From IMG/VR virus record IMGVR_UViG_3300028299_000014, positions 1 through 35,343 of that record: a stretch of 35,343 nt of DNA; one strand, 5' to 3'. Position numbers and translations under genes: made by a program. The first letter of the stretch is position 1; each line of letters starts with the position of its first letter. This document shows positions 3,501-31,775 of the stretch, one piece after another. The notes under the pieces are model-generated. The model was not told where the DNA came from, made no database searches, and was given only the letters and a program-made list of their open reading frames with translations. This stretch comes from a virus.

Positions 3501-4601
3501 ATTATTATAATAATGAGATTGATGGATGGATTAAAAGATAAAATTGAAGATGAAGAAAAGAGATATAAACATATCGTTGAAAAAATGATTTATGTTTGTG
3601 ATATTCAACCAAAGAATAATTTCATTTTTACACAGTTATTTGGTGGTATTAATAAAAAAGAATATAATTTAAATATTTATCAATATTCATTTTTGGATAA
3701 AGGGGGATTTGATAAACATATGAAAGAAGTTTGGTGTTTAGATAAATTTGATATTATTGTTGGTAATCCGCCGTATAACAATGGTACTCAAAGCGTTTCA
3801 GAAGTTTTATGGATTAAATTTATTAAAAAATCAATAAAAAATTCAGAATTAGTTTTGTTGGTTACACCAAAAACTTGGTGTAATTTAAATGAAAACTCCT
3901 TTGATAAAGAATTATATCATATATTCAAATATTTTTTAAAGTATGCTAATATTTCAAATTGTATAGCAAAAGAACATTTCAAAGGTGTCGGATCAACATT
4001 TTCTTATTATGTTTTAGATACGAAGAAAAAAAATCATATTTTTGAATTAAAAACAGATAATGGTGTTTTTGTCTTAGATTATAATAAAATAATGTTTGTC
4101 CCACAAATATTCAATGAACTTACTTCGTCAATATTGAAAAAAACTCTTTTTTCTGATAATAAAAAAATAAGTGGAATTTTCAAAGAAATAACTGGATATC
4201 GCAAAGGAGGAAAATATATTAAAGAAGATGGTAATTTTAAAGTAAGTAATACATCATCTCAATATTCTAAAAATAATTGGTTATTTACTGATAACCAACA
4301 AGATATTATGACCAAACCAAAAGTTATATTTTCTGATAGTGGTTATAATAAACCATATTATGATAACGGTGAGATAAATCTTGGTCATCATTCAAGAGCT
4401 TTTTTTGTTAAAAATGAAGAGGAATCCAAAAAACTAATTAATTTTTTAAATAGTGATTTGGTTAAATTTTTATCTATGTTAATGGTTTCAACTGGTAGTT
4501 GTGTTGGATTTGAACGATTTGTTAATTTAATACCAAATGATTATGAAGGTATTAAATTAACAGAAGAAGAAATAAAATTTATTGAAAAAATAGTGAAATA
4601 A
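561..4601 (+). CDS. Nuclease-helicase-N6-adenine methyltransferase fusion (type ISP-like R-M enzyme)
   Basis: About 1346 residues from the chosen ATG; an in-frame ATG at 519 would add 14 hydrophobic residues but lies too close to the promoter. Apparent order: a basic N-terminus (MPKSRNRKKK); a PD-(D/E)XK-like nuclease at about 75-190 (GNVYEAIG, then GFSDLHF and ISTSKY); a superfamily 2 helicase with Walker A GQGKT near 297, a DEAD-box-like RDESQ near 401, and VGTNIKG and DGRLLRKYNG as late motifs at 619-660; a charged linker at about 778-812; then a gamma-class methyltransferase with GEVFSPFELIQEMLD, motif I DPANGVGNF near 970 and motif IV NPPYNNG near 1069, followed by a probable target-recognition region. 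This order matches single-chain ATP-dependent R-M enzymes such as LlaGI (established family knowledge). It may restrict rival phages or modify phage DNA. No separate specificity subunit is seen. Confidence 0.85.
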   Translation: MPKSRNRKKKDYLVTKNNHLLIKDDKEIIIKKVVSKNEDMKRIKDIIPHIEKFQNFEDLIDFVSNEIAKTQNGDYNLQSIKGNVYEAIGQLIVFMKSSDFGKVEYYEGNINKDSIVRINSLKQILYTKIQSGNASGFSDLHFKKDDQWYISTSKYFVSNNKKLTDYDLLKLDGITSNIDELSDAKYLVFVKNKKDFVNTFNSANSSSTDIYKNRIDLEKFVFGLEEIQPWYENLRNLIIDNKFDLDYIDSEYIDTDRVPYTPFYNQSLAITWLLNEIYNSKIGKRKRKLLLDVLQGQGKTFIIFGLMIENIRKGRDWNYILTTNRPSLFHQWSEPIYQFLGLERMKVIDYLRDRDKYTDEEWNKMIEEGNNFILLSIQAARNIMNEKYSDIRNIEFDMEIRDESQEASETKLSLEKLEHINSNIKVFLSGTPQKNIYYQAISGYFDSMFHWNMMDLFNVIKTGYHKGIKVDKRSLDWYRELPGLGYFIDEWDEEFVKKLHESGYPKELYPTPQKVFEVKNGKFVYESAIEYWIEKQLGDSLMKTGWLFDKNYIKGTTIITFDNKEQQTQFKKLLDKTINGFSKTFEVHIINSAEYSSKELRNIKNLPYGSDGRILLIVDQLRVGTNIKGKSTKDLKDDLDAHTIIKLDSKSSYPINFQTDGRLLRKYNGYFGKKTKVRVIDPWVYRGYNCYNNIILSNIKRGDDVEKTTFEMLKSLSFYHNGTRISDSTEEWIEMLTRYTDSDYYNQDKASMKFKSTWNISESIEHFDLVKLLPTSGDIKGDNKEDGVGDKDKKGKSKKITSKGEGKSEEEKLSLEEIKSRIKTVYNSLFYLPFLTKFEYKNIHNILNNLHKNFIYIKGKKYNAKSFYEKHILGCSISIFRQLLDEKCLNESGINNYLNNFSDDYEKINEDKLSIVERLESIYNLIDEYRSISTIEKKKYGEVFSPFELIQEMLDTLPKEVWSDSNLKWLDPANGVGNFPIIIIMRLMDGLKDKIEDEEKRYKHIVEKMIYVCDIQPKNNFIFTQLFGGINKKEYNLNIYQYSFLDKGGFDKHMKEVWCLDKFDIIVGNPPYNNGTQSVSEVLWIKFIKKSIKNSELVLLVTPKTWCNLNENSFDKELYHIFKYFLKYANISNCIAKEHFKGVGSTFSYYVLDTKKKNHIFELKTDNGVFVLDYNKIMFVPQIFNELTSSILKKTLFSDNKKISGIFKEITGYRKGGKYIKEDGNFKVSNTSSQYSKNNWLFTDNQQDIMTKPKVIFSDSGYNKPYYDNGEINLGHHSRAFFVKNEEESKKLINFLNSDLVKFLSMLMVSTGSCVGFERFVNLIPNDYEGIKLTEEEIKFIEKIVK

Positions 4602-12774: not shown

Positions 12775-12942
12775 ATGAAGAAAACAAAAACATTTACAAT
12801 AGATGAAAATTTGTTAGAGGAGTTTATTGAAATATCAAAAAAGAAATCAATAAATAAATCATTATTTATTGAAAATTCAATACGGGATTTCATTGAAAAA
12901 TATAAAAATGAAAATGATTTTAACAGAGAAGGTAAAGGTTAA
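12775..12942 (+). CDS. Ribbon-helix-helix DNA-binding protein, 55 aa
   Basis: A 55-residue frame starting MKKTKTFTIDENLLEEFIEI and continuing through SKKKSINKSLFIENSIRDFI. The pattern, a beta strand with alternating residues (KTFTI), helix 1 (DENLLEEFIEISKK), the N/S-K-S turn and helix 2, is that of CopG/Arc-like regulators. It overlaps the homing endonuclease start by 35 bases. It probably controls its own promoter or that of the endonuclease. Confidence 0.7.
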   Translation: MKKTKTFTIDENLLEEFIEISKKKSINKSLFIENSIRDFIEKYKNENDFNREGKG

Positions 12943-14476
12943 TATATCTTTTAATAATAAAGAACATTATTCCAAATATTTTGATAATTTGAAAATTGGT
13001 AATCAAATAGAAATATCACCAGATGAACTTTCAAAAAATAGTCATTTAAAGATATTGGTAATGTGTGATATTTGTAAAGAAGAAAAATTTATTCCATATA
13101 GAGAATATCTTCAAAGTTTTGATAATGGAAATTATTATTCTTGTAGAAAATGCAATAAAGATAAATTTAGAAATACTTGCATAGAGAGATATGGTGTTAA
13201 TCACCCATTGAAAAACAAAGAGATAAGAGATAAAATAGAAGAAACCAATTTGAATAAATATGGGTGTAAGAATGTTTTCCAAAGTGATATTATTAAAAAT
13301 AAAATAAAAGAAACAAACTTAAAAAAATACGGAGTTGAATATTCTGGTCAATCTGAAAACAACAAGAAAAAATCAAAGAAAACTTGTTTGTCTAAATATG
13401 GAGTGGAACATCATTTGAAAAATAAAACAATATTAAAAAAACAACACAATACAAATATGGAGAGGTATGGGACAATAACTTCTTCTAGGAATGATAAAAT
13501 AAAAGAAAAAATATCAATAGGAATTAAAAATTTCTATATGAAAAATTCTAATAAGTTTTATGAAAATTTAACAGGAATAAGTGGGAATACAATAGAAATA
13601 TTTTGTGAAAAATGTAAAAAAACATTTAAAGTAAAAAAACATTTTTATCATGGTCGAAAACATATAAACGCAGAACAGTGTATATTTTGTAATCCTTTGA
13701 ATAATTTAGAATCATCGTATGAAAATAATATTAAGGAATTTATCAATGATAATTATGATAATGTTATTATTTTTAATGATAGGAAAGAAATAAACTTAGA
13801 ATTGGATATTTATTTGCCAGATTTAAAATTAGCGTTTGAATTTAATGGATTATATTGGCACTCAGAACTATTTAAATCAAATAATTATCACTTACAAAAG
13901 ACCGAATTATGTGAAGAAAATGGAATACAATTAATTCATATTTATGAGGATGATTGGATTTATAAAAATGATATTGTTAAATCAATGATATTAAATAAGT
14001 TGGGGAAAACCGAAAATAAAATAGACTTTAACAAATGTGAAATTAGTGAAATAACAGATAATAAATTAGTGAAAGAGTTTTTAGAGGAAAATCATATTCA
14101 AGGATTTATTGGAAGTAAAGTTAAATTGGGTCTTTTTTATAATGATGATTTAGTTAGCTTAATGACTTTTGGGAAAAGAAAAATGGAATATGAGTTATTG
14201 AGGTTTTGTAATAAACTAAATACGAATGTGATTGAATCGGAAAATAAATTATTAAAGTACTTCATTGAAAATTATAAACCAATAATGATTACAATATATG
14301 TGGATAGATCGTGGAGTACAGGGGATTTATATAAAAAATTAGGATTTGAATATGAAGGAAAGACAAAACCTAGTTTTTATTATATTGTTGATAAAAAAAA
14401 ATATAAAAATAAAAGCAAATTAGAAAAAAAGATATACAGAATATATGATTCTGGAAATCTGAAGTTTATCTACTAA
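12908..14476 (+). CDS. Homing endonuclease 1 with KYG repeats and PD-(D/E)XK-like nuclease, 522 aa
   Basis: I choose the ATG at 12908 (MKMILTEKVKVN); the open frame extends to 12869. Features in order: zinc-knuckle pair CDIC...CRKC; four copies of a (T)xxxKYGVxxxxK-type repeat (RYGVNHPLKNKE, KYGCKNVFQS, KYGVEYSGQ, KYGVEHHLKN), the DUF723-like DNA-binding repeat of phage homing enzymes; a second zinc pair CEKC...CIFC; then a nuclease core ELDIYLPDLKLAFEFNGLYW with candidate acidic residues; and a C-terminal domain ending in YRIYDSGNLKF. The C-terminal half is closely similar to homing endonuclease 2. A mobile gene, converging on the gene at 14466-15227 with an 11-base overlap. Confidence 0.85.
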   Translation: MKMILTEKVKVNISFNNKEHYSKYFDNLKIGNQIEISPDELSKNSHLKILVMCDICKEEKFIPYREYLQSFDNGNYYSCRKCNKDKFRNTCIERYGVNHPLKNKEIRDKIEETNLNKYGCKNVFQSDIIKNKIKETNLKKYGVEYSGQSENNKKKSKKTCLSKYGVEHHLKNKTILKKQHNTNMERYGTITSSRNDKIKEKISIGIKNFYMKNSNKFYENLTGISGNTIEIFCEKCKKTFKVKKHFYHGRKHINAEQCIFCNPLNNLESSYENNIKEFINDNYDNVIIFNDRKEINLELDIYLPDLKLAFEFNGLYWHSELFKSNNYHLQKTELCEENGIQLIHIYEDDWIYKNDIVKSMILNKLGKTENKIDFNKCEISEITDNKLVKEFLEENHIQGFIGSKVKLGLFYNDDLVSLMTFGKRKMEYELLRFCNKLNTNVIESENKLLKYFIENYKPIMITIYVDRSWSTGDLYKKLGFEYEGKTKPSFYYIVDKKKYKNKSKLEKKIYRIYDSGNLKFIY

Positions 14477-15320: not shown

Positions 15321-17102
15321 ATGTTAAAGGAAATAATAGAAAGAAAGAAAAATAATATAGGATCATTGACTTTATTTATTAGTAAAAGAAGTGATTTATT
15401 AGAAGAATTAAATGATAAATTCAAGAATAATGATTTAACAATTCCACAGAAGTTATGGTATTTTATGAATGATGATTTTGAATTAAAATTATGTGAATGT
15501 GGAAAATTGAAAAAATGGAAATCATTTAAGTATGGATGGAAAGAAACTTGTGGCAATATGGATTGTGTGATTAAAAAAAGAAAAAAAACAAACTTAGAAA
15601 AGTATGGTGTTGATAATCCAATGAAAAATGATGATATTATTGATAAAGTAAAAAAAACAAATCTAGATAAATATGGTGAAACATCTCCATCAAAAAATAT
15701 TGATGTAAGAAACAAGATAAGTATTAATTATAATAAAAAATCAGAAGATGAAAAACAACATATTATAAATAAAAGAGTTAAAACATGGAATAATAAAACA
15801 GATGAAGAAAAAGAAAAAGTAAAAATAAAAAAAAAGAAATCTTATAATAATCTAGATCAAGATAAAATTATAGAAAAAAGAAAAAAAACAAATTTAGAAA
15901 AGTATGGATTTGAATATACTGTAACGACACCAAAAATAAAGAAAAAGATTTTATCCACTTTAAAACATAGATATGGTGTGAATTCTACCCCATTTGAAAA
16001 TATTGAAATAAGAAAGTCCGCTTCTATTTCTTATATGAATAGACATATTGAAAATATTAAAAACGGATTGTTAAAATTTCAGTGTAAATACATTTCTCAT
16101 TATGATAAAGGTATTGGTAATTTAGAATATGAAATTTTATGTGAAAGAACAAATAAAATATTTAAAATAGGATATTCAAATCTGAGAATCAGACTTTTAC
16201 AAAATCTAGAAATTTCTCCATTTTTTTATAAACAACATGGTATATCAGAAATGGAAAAAGATTTATATAAATTTATTTGTGATAATAATATTAAAATTGA
16301 AAAAAATAATAATATTATAACCCCATATGAATTGGATATTTACATACCTGAACTAAAATTAGCATTTGAATTTAATGGTGTTTATTGGCATAATGAATTA
16401 TATAAAGATAAAAATTATCATTTAGAAAAAACAGAATTGTGTGAAAAAAATGGAGTACAACTCATTCATATTTATGAAGACGATTGGGTATATAAAAATG
16501 ATATTGTTAAGTCAATGATATTAAATAAGTTAGGAAAAACACCCGAAAAAATATACGGAAGAAAATGTGAAATTCGTGAAATAATTGATAATAAATTAGT
16601 TAAAGATTTTTTAGAAAAAAATCATATTCAGGGATTTATCGGAAGTAAAGTAAAAATAGGATTATTTTATGAAAATGAATTGGTTAGTTTAATGACTTTT
16701 GGAAAAAGAAGAATTTCAATGGGAAAAAAGAATACAAGAGAAGGAGAATATGAATTGTTAAGATTTTGTTCAAAGTTAAATACGAATGTTATTGGTGGTG
16801 CACAAAAATTATTTAAATATTTTGTGAATAATTATAAAGTTAACGAAATTACAACATACGCAGACAGATCGTGGAGTACAGGAGATTTATATAAAAAATT
16901 AGGATTTGAATATAAAGGAAAGACACAACCAAATTATTATTATGTTATTGATGGGTTGAGACATCATAGATTTAATTATCGTAAAGATAAATTAATCAAA
17001 GATGGGTTTGATAAGAATAAAACAGAACACGAGATTATGATTGAAAGAGGAATTTATAGAATTTATGATAGTGGGAATTTAAAATTTATTTTTTTAATCT
17101 AA
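15321..17102 (+). CDS. Homing endonuclease 2, 593 aa
   Basis: Paralogue of homing endonuclease 1. N-terminal cysteine pattern CECGKLKKWKSF...CGNMDCV; three or more KYG repeats (KYGVDNPMKNDD, KYGETSPSKNID, KYGFEYTVTT, RYGVNSTPFEN) interrupted by a Lys/Asn-rich coiled region; then the nuclease core ELDIYIPELKLAFEFNG-YWH and the block LCEKNGVQLIHIYEDDW, nearly identical to enzyme 1; and a C-terminal domain with YADRSWSTGDLYKKLGF and YRIYDSGNLKFIF. An extra FNYRKDKLIKDGFDKNKTE segment occurs near the end. It converges on 17094-17414 with a 9-base overlap. Confidence 0.85.
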   Translation: MLKEIIERKKNNIGSLTLFISKRSDLLEELNDKFKNNDLTIPQKLWYFMNDDFELKLCECGKLKKWKSFKYGWKETCGNMDCVIKKRKKTNLEKYGVDNPMKNDDIIDKVKKTNLDKYGETSPSKNIDVRNKISINYNKKSEDEKQHIINKRVKTWNNKTDEEKEKVKIKKKKSYNNLDQDKIIEKRKKTNLEKYGFEYTVTTPKIKKKILSTLKHRYGVNSTPFENIEIRKSASISYMNRHIENIKNGLLKFQCKYISHYDKGIGNLEYEILCERTNKIFKIGYSNLRIRLLQNLEISPFFYKQHGISEMEKDLYKFICDNNIKIEKNNNIITPYELDIYIPELKLAFEFNGVYWHNELYKDKNYHLEKTELCEKNGVQLIHIYEDDWVYKNDIVKSMILNKLGKTPEKIYGRKCEIREIIDNKLVKDFLEKNHIQGFIGSKVKIGLFYENELVSLMTFGKRRISMGKKNTREGEYELLRFCSKLNTNVIGGAQKLFKYFVNNYKVNEITTYADRSWSTGDLYKKLGFEYKGKTQPNYYYVIDGLRHHRFNYRKDKLIKDGFDKNKTEHEIMIERGIYRIYDSGNLKFIFLI

Positions 17103-23828: not shown

Positions 23829-25670
23829 TTATTCGTCCTCTTCAACACTCCAGGGTGACTCGTCTTCAACAATTGGTTTAGTTATAGTATCAGATTTTGA
23901 TATTGTGTCATTATCCAACGCTACAACCATTGGAATATTCCATCCCCTATTGTTTATAGGGACATCTAATCCTAGTTTACCTAACTTGTCCATTCCCAAT
24001 AACATTTGATTAACATTAATCATTCCATATGGGTCATTATTTTCACCATTCTCACCACCTGTATTGTAGTAAAGTGGTGTATTCCACGCTTGTGCTGGCA
24101 GATCTTTCATATTTCTCATCATTTCAATCTTAAATGTATTTTCAACACCAAGAATATCTCTTTGAGCCGCCTGACCCTTAGCTTCTTCAATCATACGAAG
24201 TTTAGTACCCTGACCTTTCAGATATTCCGCTTCTTTGTATTCCGCTGCCGCCATTTTCTCAATTTTAGCTTTAACAAGTGTACCTTGTTGTTCAGCTTCT
24301 TCACGAGATTTTTCAGTTTTAATTTTTTCAGCGTACGCACGTTGTTCTTGTTTGTAAGTAGATTCCATCTTATTCGCCAATTGTTTACGTCTATCAGGAA
24401 CAAGAAGTTCTGGTTTAATATACACTTCATTCATTTTGAATTCTTTGATAGTTAACCTAGTTCCAGTACTACCTTCTTTAAGTCTAGTATCAATTTCATT
24501 TTCAATTTTACTTCTTTCCCAAACAAATGTTGGAGCTTCGCGTTTTTCAGCGATATTTCTAATAACCGAACGAATGAGTGGAGTTGTGATTTTATTTTCT
24601 AGTTCATCCAATCCACCAACACTCGCGATAATATAAGGTGCATCCTCTGGTTGAACCTGAACAAGAATTCTACCATCTACATAAATTTCCCAACTATCTT
24701 TCGAAATAGCACGAATAGCACCATCTGCTGACTCACTTGGAATTTCTTTAAAAATTGGTTTAGATACAACCTGTGATATTTTACCATCTTCACCTATTGA
24801 TAAGTCTACTGAATACCAATCATATCCACCTTTATACGCCCATGTTTGAATTCTAGTATCAATGAGTTTTACCTCATAAGCACCTTTGTTTACGTCTGGG
24901 TGACGATTCAGATAATACATTCCAGGTTTTAATGTTTCTTTCCAAACACCCATAAATCCTCTATCAACAACTGGTGTTGCGAGTTGGTTTCCAGACGCCT
25001 CAATTTGAATATCTGTTGGAACTAATCCAACTCTAGAAATAATAACTCCAACATGACCATCTGGTACACGAGTCGCTTCAACTATCTCTACATCAAACAT
25101 ATAAGTATTAATTTTATGTTCACCAGGTTTAAGAACATTTAATTGTGGGCCTTTATAACCATTATTATTTAAAAATGATTTTACATCCAACATTGATCTT
25201 TCAATACTATCTCGTTTATTTTCCATATCTGGTGTTACCCAGTCTGGTGCGATAAATAAATCTTTTCCAAGTGGACGACCATCGACCGCTGTTAAAAGAC
25301 CTACCTGACCTTCTTCAATTTTTACATATGGAACTTGTTCGAGATCATTGATAATTCGAATAAATGGGCTGAAAATGAACCCCTCTTGTAAAAGTCGCCC
25401 TTGACGACCTCTTTCACCATTGACCGCGATAACACGATCCCCTTTTAGTTCACTACCATACTTTTTAGTAAGATGGAGTGTGTGTTTTGTTTTAACAACA
25501 ACAATACTAGTTAGTAGTACACCGAGTAATATTAAAAGAGAACCTAGTATAATACCAGTTTTCTTGATTGTCGCGGGCGGTGTTCCCCACCCCCTAAACC
25601 AACCTTTCTTGTAACCAAAGTATCCACCGATACTCATAATTAGACCAAGAATAATAAAAAATAACCACAT
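23829..25670 (-). CDS. SPFH/band 7 domain membrane protein, 613 aa
   Basis: Two N-terminal membrane segments (about 3-20 and 40-59), then an extended SPFH (stomatin/prohibitin/flotillin/HflK) region: GDRVIAVNGERG, VKIEEGQVGLLTA, DGHVGVIISRVG, LKPGMYYLNRHPD and a long helical part (KQEQRAYAEKIKTEKSREEA, AAAEYKEAEYLKG) typical of prohibitin-like coiled coils. The tail is acidic. GC content and codon use are higher than in the surrounding genes, suggesting acquisition or strong conservation. In bacteria SPFH proteins scaffold membrane microdomains and regulate FtsH; in a phage this may organise or protect the host membrane (inference). Confidence 0.85.
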   Translation of the reverse strand: MWLFFIILGLIMSIGGYFGYKKGWFRGWGTPPATIKKTGIILGSLLILLGVLLTSIVVVKTKHTLHLTKKYGSELKGDRVIAVNGERGRQGRLLQEGFIFSPFIRIINDLEQVPYVKIEEGQVGLLTAVDGRPLGKDLFIAPDWVTPDMENKRDSIERSMLDVKSFLNNNGYKGPQLNVLKPGEHKINTYMFDVEIVEATRVPDGHVGVIISRVGLVPTDIQIEASGNQLATPVVDRGFMGVWKETLKPGMYYLNRHPDVNKGAYEVKLIDTRIQTWAYKGGYDWYSVDLSIGEDGKISQVVSKPIFKEIPSESADGAIRAISKDSWEIYVDGRILVQVQPEDAPYIIASVGGLDELENKITTPLIRSVIRNIAEKREAPTFVWERSKIENEIDTRLKEGSTGTRLTIKEFKMNEVYIKPELLVPDRRKQLANKMESTYKQEQRAYAEKIKTEKSREEAEQQGTLVKAKIEKMAAAEYKEAEYLKGQGTKLRMIEEAKGQAAQRDILGVENTFKIEMMRNMKDLPAQAWNTPLYYNTGGENGENNDPYGMINVNQMLLGMDKLGKLGLDVPINNRGWNIPMVVALDNDTISKSDTITKPIVEDESPWSVEEDE

Positions 25671-27353: not shown

Positions 27354-27390
27354 ATAAAAAAACGGGTATTGGAAAATTCCAATACCCGTT
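27354..27390 (-). terminator. Intrinsic terminator of the RNase P RNA gene
   Basis: AACGGGTATTGGAA (27361-27374) pairs perfectly with TTCCAATACCCGTT (27377-27390) around a 2-base loop; leftward transcription continues into TTTTTATG. It begins 2 bases after the P1 3' strand of the structured RNA. Confidence 0.9.
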
Positions 27391-27392
27391 AA

Positions 27393-27611
27393 ATTAATTG
27401 ATTAAGCGTAACCAGCCTCCTGTTTTATCACATCATTTATCTATCATCCTCTACCTTGGAATTATTGTGTCGCTCACCCACTATCCTGTTTTGAGTTTAA
27501 CCCTAAGTTGTACGAACGATTGGTTAGATCTCCAACTTTAAGCGATGGTTGGCTGAGTTTCCTCACATTCTTATTTAAAGAGTAGTGCGATGTGTCCTCT
27601 TACCAATTAAT
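27393..27611 (-). ncRNA. rnpB: Minimal RNase P RNA, about 219 nt
   Basis: Read on the minus strand, the RNA forms the RNase P core. P1: AUUAAUUGGUAAG (27611-27599) with CUUAAUCAAUUAAU (27406-27393), one bulge. P2: CACAUC (27594-27589) with GAUGUG (27434-27429). P3 follows at once (GCAC..UCUU, AAGA..GUG). Then comes the universal GAGGAAA. P4: AAC(U)CAGCC (27559-27551) with GGCUGGUU (27417-27410), all 8 pairs formed and the universally conserved bulged U in place, although the sequence differs from E. coli (AAG(U)CCGGG/CCCGGCUU). ACAGGA precedes the P4 3' strand (ACAGAA in bacteria), and AGAUAAAUGAU matches the conserved AGAUGAAUGAC. P5: UCGCU/AGCGA. AAGGUA at 27457-27452 matches the L15 loop that binds tRNA CCA. 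The specificity domain is much reduced compared with about 377 nt in E. coli. It presumably uses the host protein subunit; no rnpA is seen here. Confidence 0.85.
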
Positions 27612-27617
27612 AATCTA

Positions 27618-27648
27618 CAAAGATACGAAAATCTTTTTAATTTTCAAA
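27618..27648 (-). promoter_or_regulatory. Bacteroidota-type promoter of the RNase P RNA
   Basis: On the minus strand TTTG (27648-27645), 19 bases, then TATCTTTG (27625-27618): the Bacteroidota primary sigma factor consensus TTTG-N19-TAnnTTTG. The expected start 6-7 bases downstream falls at 27611, exactly the first base of P1. The TTTG overlaps the stop codon of the MazG-like gene. Confidence 0.85.
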
Positions 27649-28093
27649 ATAATTTATTATGTTTTTTATCTCGTAACTCATTGAAAGTCATTTTCATGTC
27701 AAGGTGCTTTTCAATATCAATTCCCAATCCATCACATAAATCACCTAATCTTATAAAAACATCTGATATTTCATCTTCAAATGTGTCTTTTATGAGATGA
27801 ACAAATCTCATTTGAAATAATTTTGGATTTTCTTTTGATTGTTTATATAATTCATCCATTATATCATTATCAATTCGTGTCAATTTATCATTTCTTAACG
27901 CTTCGATACACTCTCCGATTTCTGACACTATTAATAATAATTTTTGATTGATAAATGAGTACTTAAAGATTTTAACTTCATCTTCTGAAAATTCACATTT
28001 TTTCATTTTTTCTAGTATTCTAGTGTAATCTTCCCAAAATCCTTTTTCTATTGCGATAATATGTGACTTTGTTTTTAACTCATTGATTGTCAT
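27644..28093 (-). CDS. MazG-like nucleotide pyrophosphohydrolase, 149 aa
   Basis: Contains the MazG/dUTPase-like helical signature: LLIVSEIGECIEALR (ExxE, about 53-67), FEDEISDVFIRLGDLCDGLG (ExxD, about 104-123) and the family-typical C-terminal NELRDKKHNKLF. These acidic residues bind the magnesium ions that help hydrolyse NTPs to NMP and pyrophosphate. Phage MazG proteins have been linked to nucleotide pools and ppGpp. The ATG overlaps the stop of the upstream 78-residue gene by one base, and the RNase P RNA promoter begins at its stop codon. Confidence 0.8.
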   Translation of the reverse strand: MTINELKTKSHIIAIEKGFWEDYTRILEKMKKCEFSEDEVKIFKYSFINQKLLLIVSEIGECIEALRNDKLTRIDNDIMDELYKQSKENPKLFQMRFVHLIKDTFEDEISDVFIRLGDLCDGLGIDIEKHLDMKMTFNELRDKKHNKLF

Positions 28094-29184: not shown

Positions 29185-29892
29185 ATGAGAATTTTATCAA
29201 TAGGAGATATACATGGTAATAACATATGGAAAGAATATGTTAAAGACATTGATAATTATGACAAAATAATTTTTATTGGTGATTACGTAGACTCATTTAA
29301 TTTTAGTGATGAAAGAATTTTAAAAAATTTAAAAGATTTAATAAAATTTAAAAGAAAAAACAAAGAAAAGGTTATATTATTGTTTGGTAATCACGACTTA
29401 CAATATATTGAACCACAATTCAGATGTTCTGGATATAGAGAAAGTATGGATGACATTCTATCTGAATTTTTCAAAAAGAGTAAATCACTATTTAGAATTT
29501 CTTATCAATATGAAAATTATATTTGGACACATGGTGGAATAGATACTCATTGGTGGATTAATTACGCTGATATTATATTCAAAACTAGATATAAAAAAGA
29601 ATCTGATTTGGGTGTTAGTGATAAAATAAATCTTCTGTTTAAAAAGAAAGAATGGGCTCTTAAAATGGTCTCCGCGTACAGAGGTGGAATAAGTAAGGTT
29701 AGTAGTCCACTTTGGTGTGATAGAAGAGAAATAAAACCATTAGAGAATTATCATCAGATAGTTGGTCATTCACCTGTTAGAGATATTACTAAATTAGAAA
29801 TAAATAAAGACACATCTGTAACATTTATAGATTGTTTAGAATTTGAGAGTAAATTAAAAATGGAAAAAGTGTATGTACTTGATTTAGATTAA
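29185..29892 (+). CDS. Metallophosphatase (PPP-like serine/threonine phosphatase), 235 aa
   Basis: All core calcineurin-like motifs are present in order: GDIHG (7-11), GDYVD (about 32-36), GNHD (about 67-70), THGG (near 115) and GHS (near 194). The arrangement resembles PPP-type phosphatases such as lambda protein phosphatase. Likely a soluble Mn/Fe-dependent phosphatase acting on proteins or small phosphoesters in the infected cell. It has no tag. Its stop overlaps the convergent large gene at 29889 by 4 bases. Confidence 0.85.
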   Translation: MRILSIGDIHGNNIWKEYVKDIDNYDKIIFIGDYVDSFNFSDERILKNLKDLIKFKRKNKEKVILLFGNHDLQYIEPQFRCSGYRESMDDILSEFFKKSKSLFRISYQYENYIWTHGGIDTHWWINYADIIFKTRYKKESDLGVSDKINLLFKKKEWALKMVSAYRGGISKVSSPLWCDRREIKPLENYHQIVGHSPVRDITKLEINKDTSVTFIDCLEFESKLKMEKVYVLDLD

Positions 29893-31775
29893 TTCTTAAT
29901 TGGGGAAGTTCCATATTTCCAATATTTTCCAGTATATTCATCATAAAATCCACCATTTTTCTTAAACTCTTTCTTGCTAATTGGAATTTCTGGATAATCC
30001 CCTAAAGTTAATTCTTTTTCCTCTTCCTCTTCCTCTTCAAAATTATCATTTATTTTCTTATATCTTTCTTTTACTAATTTTGGTTTCTTATTTTTCTTTT
30101 TTTCTGAGTACATTTTTCCAAGTTCACCAATTGATTTTTCTTCTAGTTCTTTTTCTGGTACACCAAGAGCGATTAATCTTCCAATATAATAATCTTTAGA
30201 TTTTTCATATCTTTCTTTTTTATCACCATCACTTTTTCTATACATATATTCTTCTTTAACATCATCATCATCAAAATCGAAATCAAAAGTTTCTAGTTGT
30301 AGTGGTGGCATTTCAGGCAGTCTTACTCTAGGTTTTGGTGGAATATAATCTAACTCAATATCTTTAGATTTACATTTCGGACATCTATATTTCATAAATG
30401 GCCTAGAAAATTCTTCAAATTCTAAACCAACATATCCACAATTATTACGATCGTATTTTTTTACTATAACACCTTCACTAACTTCCTCAAAATCAATATC
30501 TGTATTAAATTCAGTAAAATTAAATACTTCTGATACTTTATTTAAATATTCAAAAATATCTTTTTGATTAATTTTTTCTAATAATGATGGGCCAATTGGT
30601 ACACGAAGAGACGCTGCGATACGACTAGGCATTTGTTGATGTTTTACTAATTGTACCTTATCTATGGTTACTTTATATTTCTTTATAAATTTCCCATCAT
30701 TTGAGTACGCTTTTATAATTTGTTTACCTTTGCCAATTTCATTTTCATTTATCAAAAATATTCTAATACTAGTGGTTAAAAATGATTTTGGTAGATTTTC
30801 TGAAAACAATACAAAAACTCCATCAAATGGGTCAGCTTTTTCAAATTGTGGATTTCTTTTGTCTAATATATCTTGAGTATCAGTTCCTTCCATACCCATA
30901 TAAACCGACTTGAATTTAGCGTTCGGAGTCATTATATAAACAATATCATAAACATCATATCCTCTGTTTGTGTATGGTGGTAGTTTTCTAAATTTTCCAG
31001 CAGCAGAACCTTTTTCTTTATCCATAACATCCTGAATTTTAGGTATTTCTGGAGTTGTTTTAGTTAGTTCTGGATGACGGAATTTTACAATCTTACCACC
31101 TTCTGGTTTTTGACTTAATTGTTTTAATTTGTTTACTCTATTTACATCTTCTTCATTATTTTGATTTAGATAATACCATTTTTTATCAAATTCAATTCTT
31201 TTTATTCCATTATTAAATAATTCTTTTTCTATACTTTTTCTAAAATTATTTAATTTCATATATTCTCTGAAATTATCCTTCCTATCAATAGTTTTTAGTC
31301 TATAAAGTATTTTCTTTAGTTTACCTTTTTCATCTTTTATACTCTTCTCTTCATTTACTTTATAAAAATTGGATTCATTTAATCTAAATTTATTTATTTT
31401 AATTCCTTTGATTTCCTTATCGGTTTCTAAGTCCATAACATCAACGACACGATAAGTTTCATAGGGTGGTATACCCGCTCTTGTTTCTGTTTTAGAACAT
31501 ATAACAATATCACCGACTTTAATATTTTCATCTTCTGATTCTTCTTCTTCCCAATTCCAGTCATTATCATCAAATTCATTTGATTCATATTTATACTGAT
31601 CTTCATCATATCGAGATAGTCTTTGTGCTATAATATAATATTTATCCTCATCATAATGATAATCACCATTCTCAACTTCAAAAGATAATCCTTGTTCTAT
31701 TAAATCATCCAACTCTTTCTGAGTTACAAATATTGAAGGCTTATTACCATTTGAAAAAATTTCTATTTCGTTCAT
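29889..31775 (-). CDS. Large multidomain protein with internal acidic tag, 628 aa
   Basis: Starts MNEIEIFSNGNKPSIFVTQK without an N-terminal tag, but residues 65-80 (SNEFDDNDWNWEEEES) are the acidic tag half, and the body then continues KVGDIVICSKTETRAGIPPY, the small-barrel type seen after tags in other genes. A zinc knuckle YRCPKCKSKDIEL lies near 455. Acidic runs and a coiled, Lys/Glu-rich C-terminal third follow. So a tagged module appears embedded after a 64-residue N-terminal piece. Family and function unknown; by size it could be a structural or internal head protein. Confidence 0.75.
   Translation of the reverse strand: MNEIEIFSNGNKPSIFVTQKELDDLIEQGLSFEVENGDYHYDEDKYYIIAQRLSRYDEDQYKYESNEFDDNDWNWEEEESEDENIKVGDIVICSKTETRAGIPPYETYRVVDVMDLETDKEIKGIKINKFRLNESNFYKVNEEKSIKDEKGKLKKILYRLKTIDRKDNFREYMKLNNFRKSIEKELFNNGIKRIEFDKKWYYLNQNNEEDVNRVNKLKQLSQKPEGGKIVKFRHPELTKTTPEIPKIQDVMDKEKGSAAGKFRKLPPYTNRGYDVYDIVYIMTPNAKFKSVYMGMEGTDTQDILDKRNPQFEKADPFDGVFVLFSENLPKSFLTTSIRIFLINENEIGKGKQIIKAYSNDGKFIKKYKVTIDKVQLVKHQQMPSRIAASLRVPIGPSLLEKINQKDIFEYLNKVSEVFNFTEFNTDIDFEEVSEGVIVKKYDRNNCGYVGLEFEEFSRPFMKYRCPKCKSKDIELDYIPPKPRVRLPEMPPLQLETFDFDFDDDDVKEEYMYRKSDGDKKERYEKSKDYYIGRLIALGVPEKELEEKSIGELGKMYSEKKKNKKPKLVKERYKKINDNFEEEEEEEKELTLGDYPEIPISKKEFKKNGGFYDEYTGKYWKYGTSPIKN

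Follow-up and report, generated by a model that had tools for sequence, protein, structure and literature searches.

Does the minus strand of this viral DNA encode an RNase P RNA at 27611-27393 and, if it does, what would a phage do with one? The ribozyme RNase P RNA is nearly universal. It is regarded as a hallmark of cells, to the point that it has served as a check on genome completeness (PMC8172020). The first-pass annotation of the window (the whole stretch of DNA that was analysed, 35,343 nucleotides) had proposed a phage RNase P RNA with a reduced specificity domain, and every element that it named could be located on the minus strand: the promoter, the terminator, P1 (13 bp), P2 (6 bp), P3, P4 with its bulged U and P5, as well as the motifs GAGGAAA, ACAGGA, AGAUAAAUGA and AAGGUA. 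From sequence comparison, we conclude that 27611-27393 is almost certainly a bacterial-type RNase P RNA. The features of the locus are as follows.

27393..27611, minus: RNase P RNA gene from P1 to P1', ~219 nt (held-out models, covariation)
27407-27593, minus: core P2-P4 of the RNase P RNA (model R1 match)
27611-27599 with 27406-27393, minus: P1, ~13 bp (letters)
27594-27589 / 27434-27429, minus: P2, CACAUC/GAUGUG (letters, covariation)
minus: P3, CAC..GUG plus UCUU/AAGA (letters, covariation)
27564-27555, minus: CR I, GAGGAAACUC (letters)
27551..27564, minus: CR I and the P4 5' strand jointly (letters; P4 covariation in 19 phage RNAs)
27559-27551 / 27417-27410, minus: P4, AAC[U]CAGCC/GGCUGGUU, with the universal bulged U; 5' strand AACUCAGCC (covariation)
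27545-27541 / 27474-27470, minus: P5, UCGCU/AGCGA (letters, covariation)
27470..27545, minus: P5 and the reduced specificity domain jointly (letters, covariation)
27538-27533 / 27510-27505, minus: P7-like stem, AAGUUG/CAACUU (letters, covariation)
27530-27528 / 27520-27518, minus: 3-bp hairpin inside the P7-like stem (letters, covariation)
27457-27451, minus: L15-like AAGGUAG (letters; GGU invariant in alignment A3)
27442-27433, minus: CR V, AGAUAAAUGA; 27429..27442 with the P2 3' strand (letters)
27423-27418, minus: J2/4, ACAGGA; 27410..27423 with the P4 3' strand (letters)
27618..27648, minus: promoter TTTG-N19-TATCTTTG, with TTTG at 27648-27645 and TATCTTTG at 27625-27618 (letters)
27356..27390, minus: intrinsic terminator AACGGGTATTGGAA-TTTT-CCAATACCCGTT followed by a T run (letters)
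27644..28093, minus: MazG-like pyrophosphatase gene, the upstream neighbour (PHROG 9236, E 1e-20)

The RNA has the layout of an independent transcription unit in that its first P1 base, 27611, which is the predicted start, lies seven bases after the promoter, and the terminator starts directly after P1'. The promoter agrees with the Bacteroidota consensus, and a similar one is found in the near relative L122. Within the RNA, CR I (GAGGAAA..UC), CR V (AGANNAAUGA) and J2/4 (ACAGRA) are all present, P4 carries the bulged U and forms a pseudoknot with P2, and P1, P2, P3 and P5 are each accompanied by covariation; the helix names P7 and P8 within the specificity domain are provisional. The GGU of L15 in bacterial RNase P RNA pairs with the tRNA 3' CCA, and the GGU motif is present here, with binding predicted from it. 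On the other flank lies a small ORF without family assignment. Elsewhere in the window, two related HNH homing-endonuclease genes occupy 12869-14476 and 15321-17102 on the plus strand, and 23829-25670 encodes an SPFH/Band 7 protein, of which LR756502 and Vibrio phages of 71-163 kb have relatives; tblastn of the window protein 29889-31775 gave no match in phages.

Rfam returned no match to the RNA at 27611-27393, either at the gathering threshold or at E<=1, and a single-sequence energy fold did not recover the expected structure and assigned the sequence an ordinary stability (z -0.29), so its identity must rest on comparison. We aligned 19 phage RNAs and tested the inner part of P1, P2, P3, P4, P5 and two specificity-domain helices. 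The window RNA forms 32/32 of the hypothesised core pairs, and across the alignment 95.7% of the cells in these 32 pairs are paired, with two-sided changes at 26/32 pairs, the P4 pseudoknot included; the 19 RNAs are kin, and the changes counted are therefore non-independent events. P1, P2, P3 and P5 show 94-98% pairing, each with two-sided changes, and P4, for which the first-pass annotation had claimed compensatory change relative to E. coli and B. subtilis, has 97% of its cells paired and two-sided changes at 6 of its 7 pairs. The pair changes that compensate one another can be read directly in the two sequences CAGCC/GGCUG (window) and UCAAC/GUUGA (LR756502). The covariance that was called for in related phages is thus present: the covariation score is 0.734, against a mean of 0.208 for shuffles and a maximum of 0.112 when the pairings are slid. 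Because sliding preserves kinship yet abolishes the signal, the covariation reflects more than the relatedness of the sequences.

By held-out covariance models, the predicted RNA is far beyond chance. Model R1, built from 18 phage relatives with the window excluded, has a single match in the window, at 27407-27593 on the minus strand (143.7 bits, E 3.2e-35), and model R2, from which the window and its three closest relatives were both removed, still gives the window RNA 134.8 bits (E 4e-25); both E-values are approximate, as they derive from a shortened calibration. Over 16 whole records (12 viral, 4 cellular), R1 yields at most one match per record, and E. coli rnpB has no match to R1 at E<=10. 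The low-threshold Rfam search that the first-pass annotation recommended, empty for the window itself, was informative for the relatives: L127, L136 and L003 match class A (RF00010) with 66, 61.5 and 61 bits (E 7e-18 to 3e-16) over the whole model, below the curated 100, and neither the window RNA nor these three relatives score above that cut-off. No better-scoring alternative RNA family appeared. Taken with the covariation and the held-out models, the class A matches of the relatives bear out the proposal of a phage RNase P RNA with a reduced specificity domain.

How widely is this form distributed? Distant BLASTN against the phage collection gave LR756502, a 642 kb metagenomic huge phage, as the sole match (71% over 190 nt), and the RNAs of L144, L003, L128 and L153 found no match in the same collection by BLASTN. 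A pattern of the 3' end, AAATGAT-N-ACAGRA....G.YTACG, which contains neither GAGGAA nor any 5' strand, retrieved 26 viral contigs. RNase P elements are present at 23 of these loci, 21 of them with GAGGAA..UC and the helices upstream, one permuted (L138) and one interrupted (L145); the other three resemble chance matches. Further searches added huge phages of 595 kb and 735 kb, approximately 20 more viral contigs and a cultured carrier, Stenotrophomonas phage vB_SmaS-DLP_6 (DLP6). In all, about 40 phage loci have a miniature RNase P RNA; they are mostly metagenomic, and the largest phage genomes known are among the carriers. An earlier viral pattern, GAGGAAA-N-AGATAAATGA, had returned chiefly chance coding matches and one true locus, L003. 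L178, suggested as a relative by its 5' motif, reaches just 15 bits with the model of the miniature RNA and was rejected; at 4382-4422 it has the RNase P-like motif ATCGCACTAC...GTGAGGAAAGTC, followed by tRNA-like sequence.

A pattern specific to the reduced architecture matched 30 viral contigs versus 4 cellular contigs in 84,980 species genomes. Three of the latter (L171, L172 and L174) were rejected, being without a covariance-model match, and the fourth, L173, is a full-length normal rnpB that was matched through an internal GAGGAAACTC; no genuine miniature form was found in the 84,980 cellular species genomes, for the forms that the pattern can see. These results bear on the idea that the element is what remains of a captured host rnpB that no longer functions, a reading invited by its small size and by the missing Rfam match of the window RNA. 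We consider it very improbable: all 32 core pairs are intact, as are the promoter and the terminator, covariation across phages is strong, and the same form is absent from cellular genomes.

What has been reduced is the part of the molecule that reads the tRNA elbow. The predicted catalytic domain of the window RNA is complete and of class A type (P1-P5, CR I, CR V and the GGU loop), whereas the full specificity domain, with P10-P12 and the CR II/CR III T-loop modules, is missing, and we therefore file the RNA as a variant outside canonical class A. A stem of 5-6 bp and a 3-bp hairpin are what is left of this domain in the window RNA, and in the RF00010 alignment of L127 approximately 105 consensus positions (the P10-P12 region) correspond to 8 nt. 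The specificity domain makes the contacts with the T and D loops of tRNA, and much of it is absent; without this elbow-binding part the specificity may be looser or shifted.

The genomic context points to tRNA. All 11 carrier records tested have tRNA genes: the three huge phages (595, 642 and 735 kb) have between 50 and 66 each, and the near relative L122, a 28 kb contig, has five. At 37 of 42 loci the retrieved DNA includes a tRNA, and in 37/37 the closest tRNA shares its strand with the RNase P RNA; at 22/42 loci it is at most 500 bp away, often at most 20 bp, and some carriers lack any tRNA for several kb around. In the window, a 35 kb fragment, no tRNA was seen. In DLP6 (KU682439.2), the RNA, at about 105787-106008 with P1 extending beyond these positions, is unannotated and lies 18 bp before a tRNA-Arg, in a region of 30 tRNAs; the paper describing this phage does not mention RNase P (PMC5349666). 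An active RNase P RNA that had lost its T-loop binding could also have been retargeted to other substrates (phage mRNAs, tmRNA, other leaders), and the missing elbow-reading part, together with the carriers that have no tRNA for several kb, would fit such a change. This we regard as unlikely, given that the GGU loop for the tRNA CCA is retained, that tRNAs occur in every record tested, and that archaeal type T RNAs, with most of the S domain gone, still process tRNA, which makes the loss of this domain compatible with a tRNA-processing role.

Of 41 viral records searched for RnpA, many of them fragments and the window among them, 40 are without it; LR756502 is the exception. Its RnpA gene (L175 1495-1803, ~525.2 kb in the genome), identified by profile match, scores 53 bits with PF00825 and 52.5 bits with TIGR00188, the latter above the equivalog cut-off, and carries the RNR motif, KRAVDRNRVKRLMRE. 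With the miniature RNA and the RnpA match in one genome, LR756502 encodes both RNase P parts, and for the others the use of host RnpA is an assumption, made because 40 of the 41 records are without the gene. That nearly all records encode the RNA alone, and that a protein-binding core could survive the reduction of the specificity domain, would also suit a decoy that titrates host RnpA, lowers host RNase P and disturbs host tRNA processing, for which catalysis is unneeded. The probability of such a decoy is low in our judgement, slightly lower than that of retargeting: P4 with its bulged U, CR I, CR V and the GGU loop are kept in very diverse phages, beyond what protein binding by itself should require, the linkage to tRNA arrays fits processing, and one phage also encodes RnpA. 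Among the roles raised in the first-pass annotation, processing of phage tRNAs is thus favoured by the array linkage, and for titration of the host protein we found no specific support.

Catalysis is a better reading than mere titration, since the active site is retained along with the CCA-binding loop, and we hold it likely, on the strength of sequence comparison, that the element is an RNase P RNA and acts in tRNA processing. The phage RNA would be transcribed from its own host-type promoter and would assemble with host RnpA, or possibly with phage RnpA in at least one huge phage. The complex would then cleave 5' leaders from the pre-tRNAs of the phage and possibly from those of the host. 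In this way the infected cell might keep its supply of tRNA where host RNase P is limiting or ill-suited to phage precursors.

Several loci depart from the common arrangement. In L138 (IMGVR_UViG_3300028591_000212, ~770-1095, minus), an apparently circularly permuted RNase P RNA lies in a tRNA array; CR V, P2' and P4' precede P2, P3, CR I and the remainder, the ends being joined by AAAGCCUU/AAGGCUUU, and the remainder matches Rfam class B with 58.8 bits. This is the one case of circular permutation among the viral contigs found. The RNA of L145 (4935-5820, minus) is split just ahead of CR V by an insert of ~590 nt, whose ORF resembles, by eye, a GIY-YIG homing endonuclease; Rfam gives no support for a group I intron in the insert, and L139 2443-2653 represents the uninterrupted allele. 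At L132 7662-7797, L144 9792-9930 and L146 1558-1696, the cores measure ~136-139 nt with the specificity domain nearly gone, and a tRNA-Gln adjoins the RNA in all three. tmRNA genes are found at L143 5069-5412 and L003 6-363, in phages whose RNase P RNA is accompanied by large tRNA arrays.

We lean, if only slightly, towards a general picture in which many tailed-phage lineages keep, apart from that of their hosts, a distinct miniaturised RNase P RNA for their tRNA arrays, at least one huge phage has a complete two-part RNase P, and permuted, homing-endonuclease-split and ~140-nt core forms are natural variants. No report of a phage-encoded RNase P RNA turned up in the literature searched (huge and jumbo phages, RNase P reviews, rnpB finders), a set that mostly excludes subscription papers, and we claim no priority. 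Such RNAs would add a tRNA-processing enzyme to the tRNAs of the phage translation toolkit and suggest a route by which phages escape reliance on host tRNA processing. They also expose a blind spot of Rfam, which misses the miniature phage RNAs, and offer naturally reduced ribozymes for structure-function work, with DLP6 as a cultured phage in which one is testable.

The closest known system is bacterial class A RNase P RNA (RF00010, rnpB), which shares with the phage form P1-P5, the P4/P2 pseudoknot, the bulged U, CR I, CR V, J2/4 ACAGRA and the GGU loop. Class A RNAs are cellular, whereas the miniature form is phage-borne and, in L127, has ~8 nt in place of ~105 specificity-domain positions; the phage cores P2-P4 measure ~140-270 nt, and the window RNA 219 nt with P1, versus 377 nt in the annotation of E. 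coli rnpB, in keeping with the first-pass estimate of a length far below class A, and unlike class A members the window RNA falls under every Rfam threshold. The archaeal type T of Pyrobaculum has likewise largely lost the specificity domain and kept the catalytic one; type T is archaeal and cellular, with archaeal proteins, whereas the phage form is of bacterial type. Thermoproteaceae RNase P RNAs are without P12, and reduced bacterial RNAs without P12 occur in Mycoplasma fermentans and some CPR (PMC8172020). The bacterial examples resemble the phage RNA in missing P12 and further S-domain helices, but they are cellular and essential, whereas the phage form is absent from the 84,980 cellular species genomes by the pattern used. 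Finally, phage tRNA arrays are translation-support genes of the same phages and often lie directly adjacent; the arrays would provide the substrates, and the miniature RNA would be the RNA of the enzyme that processes them.
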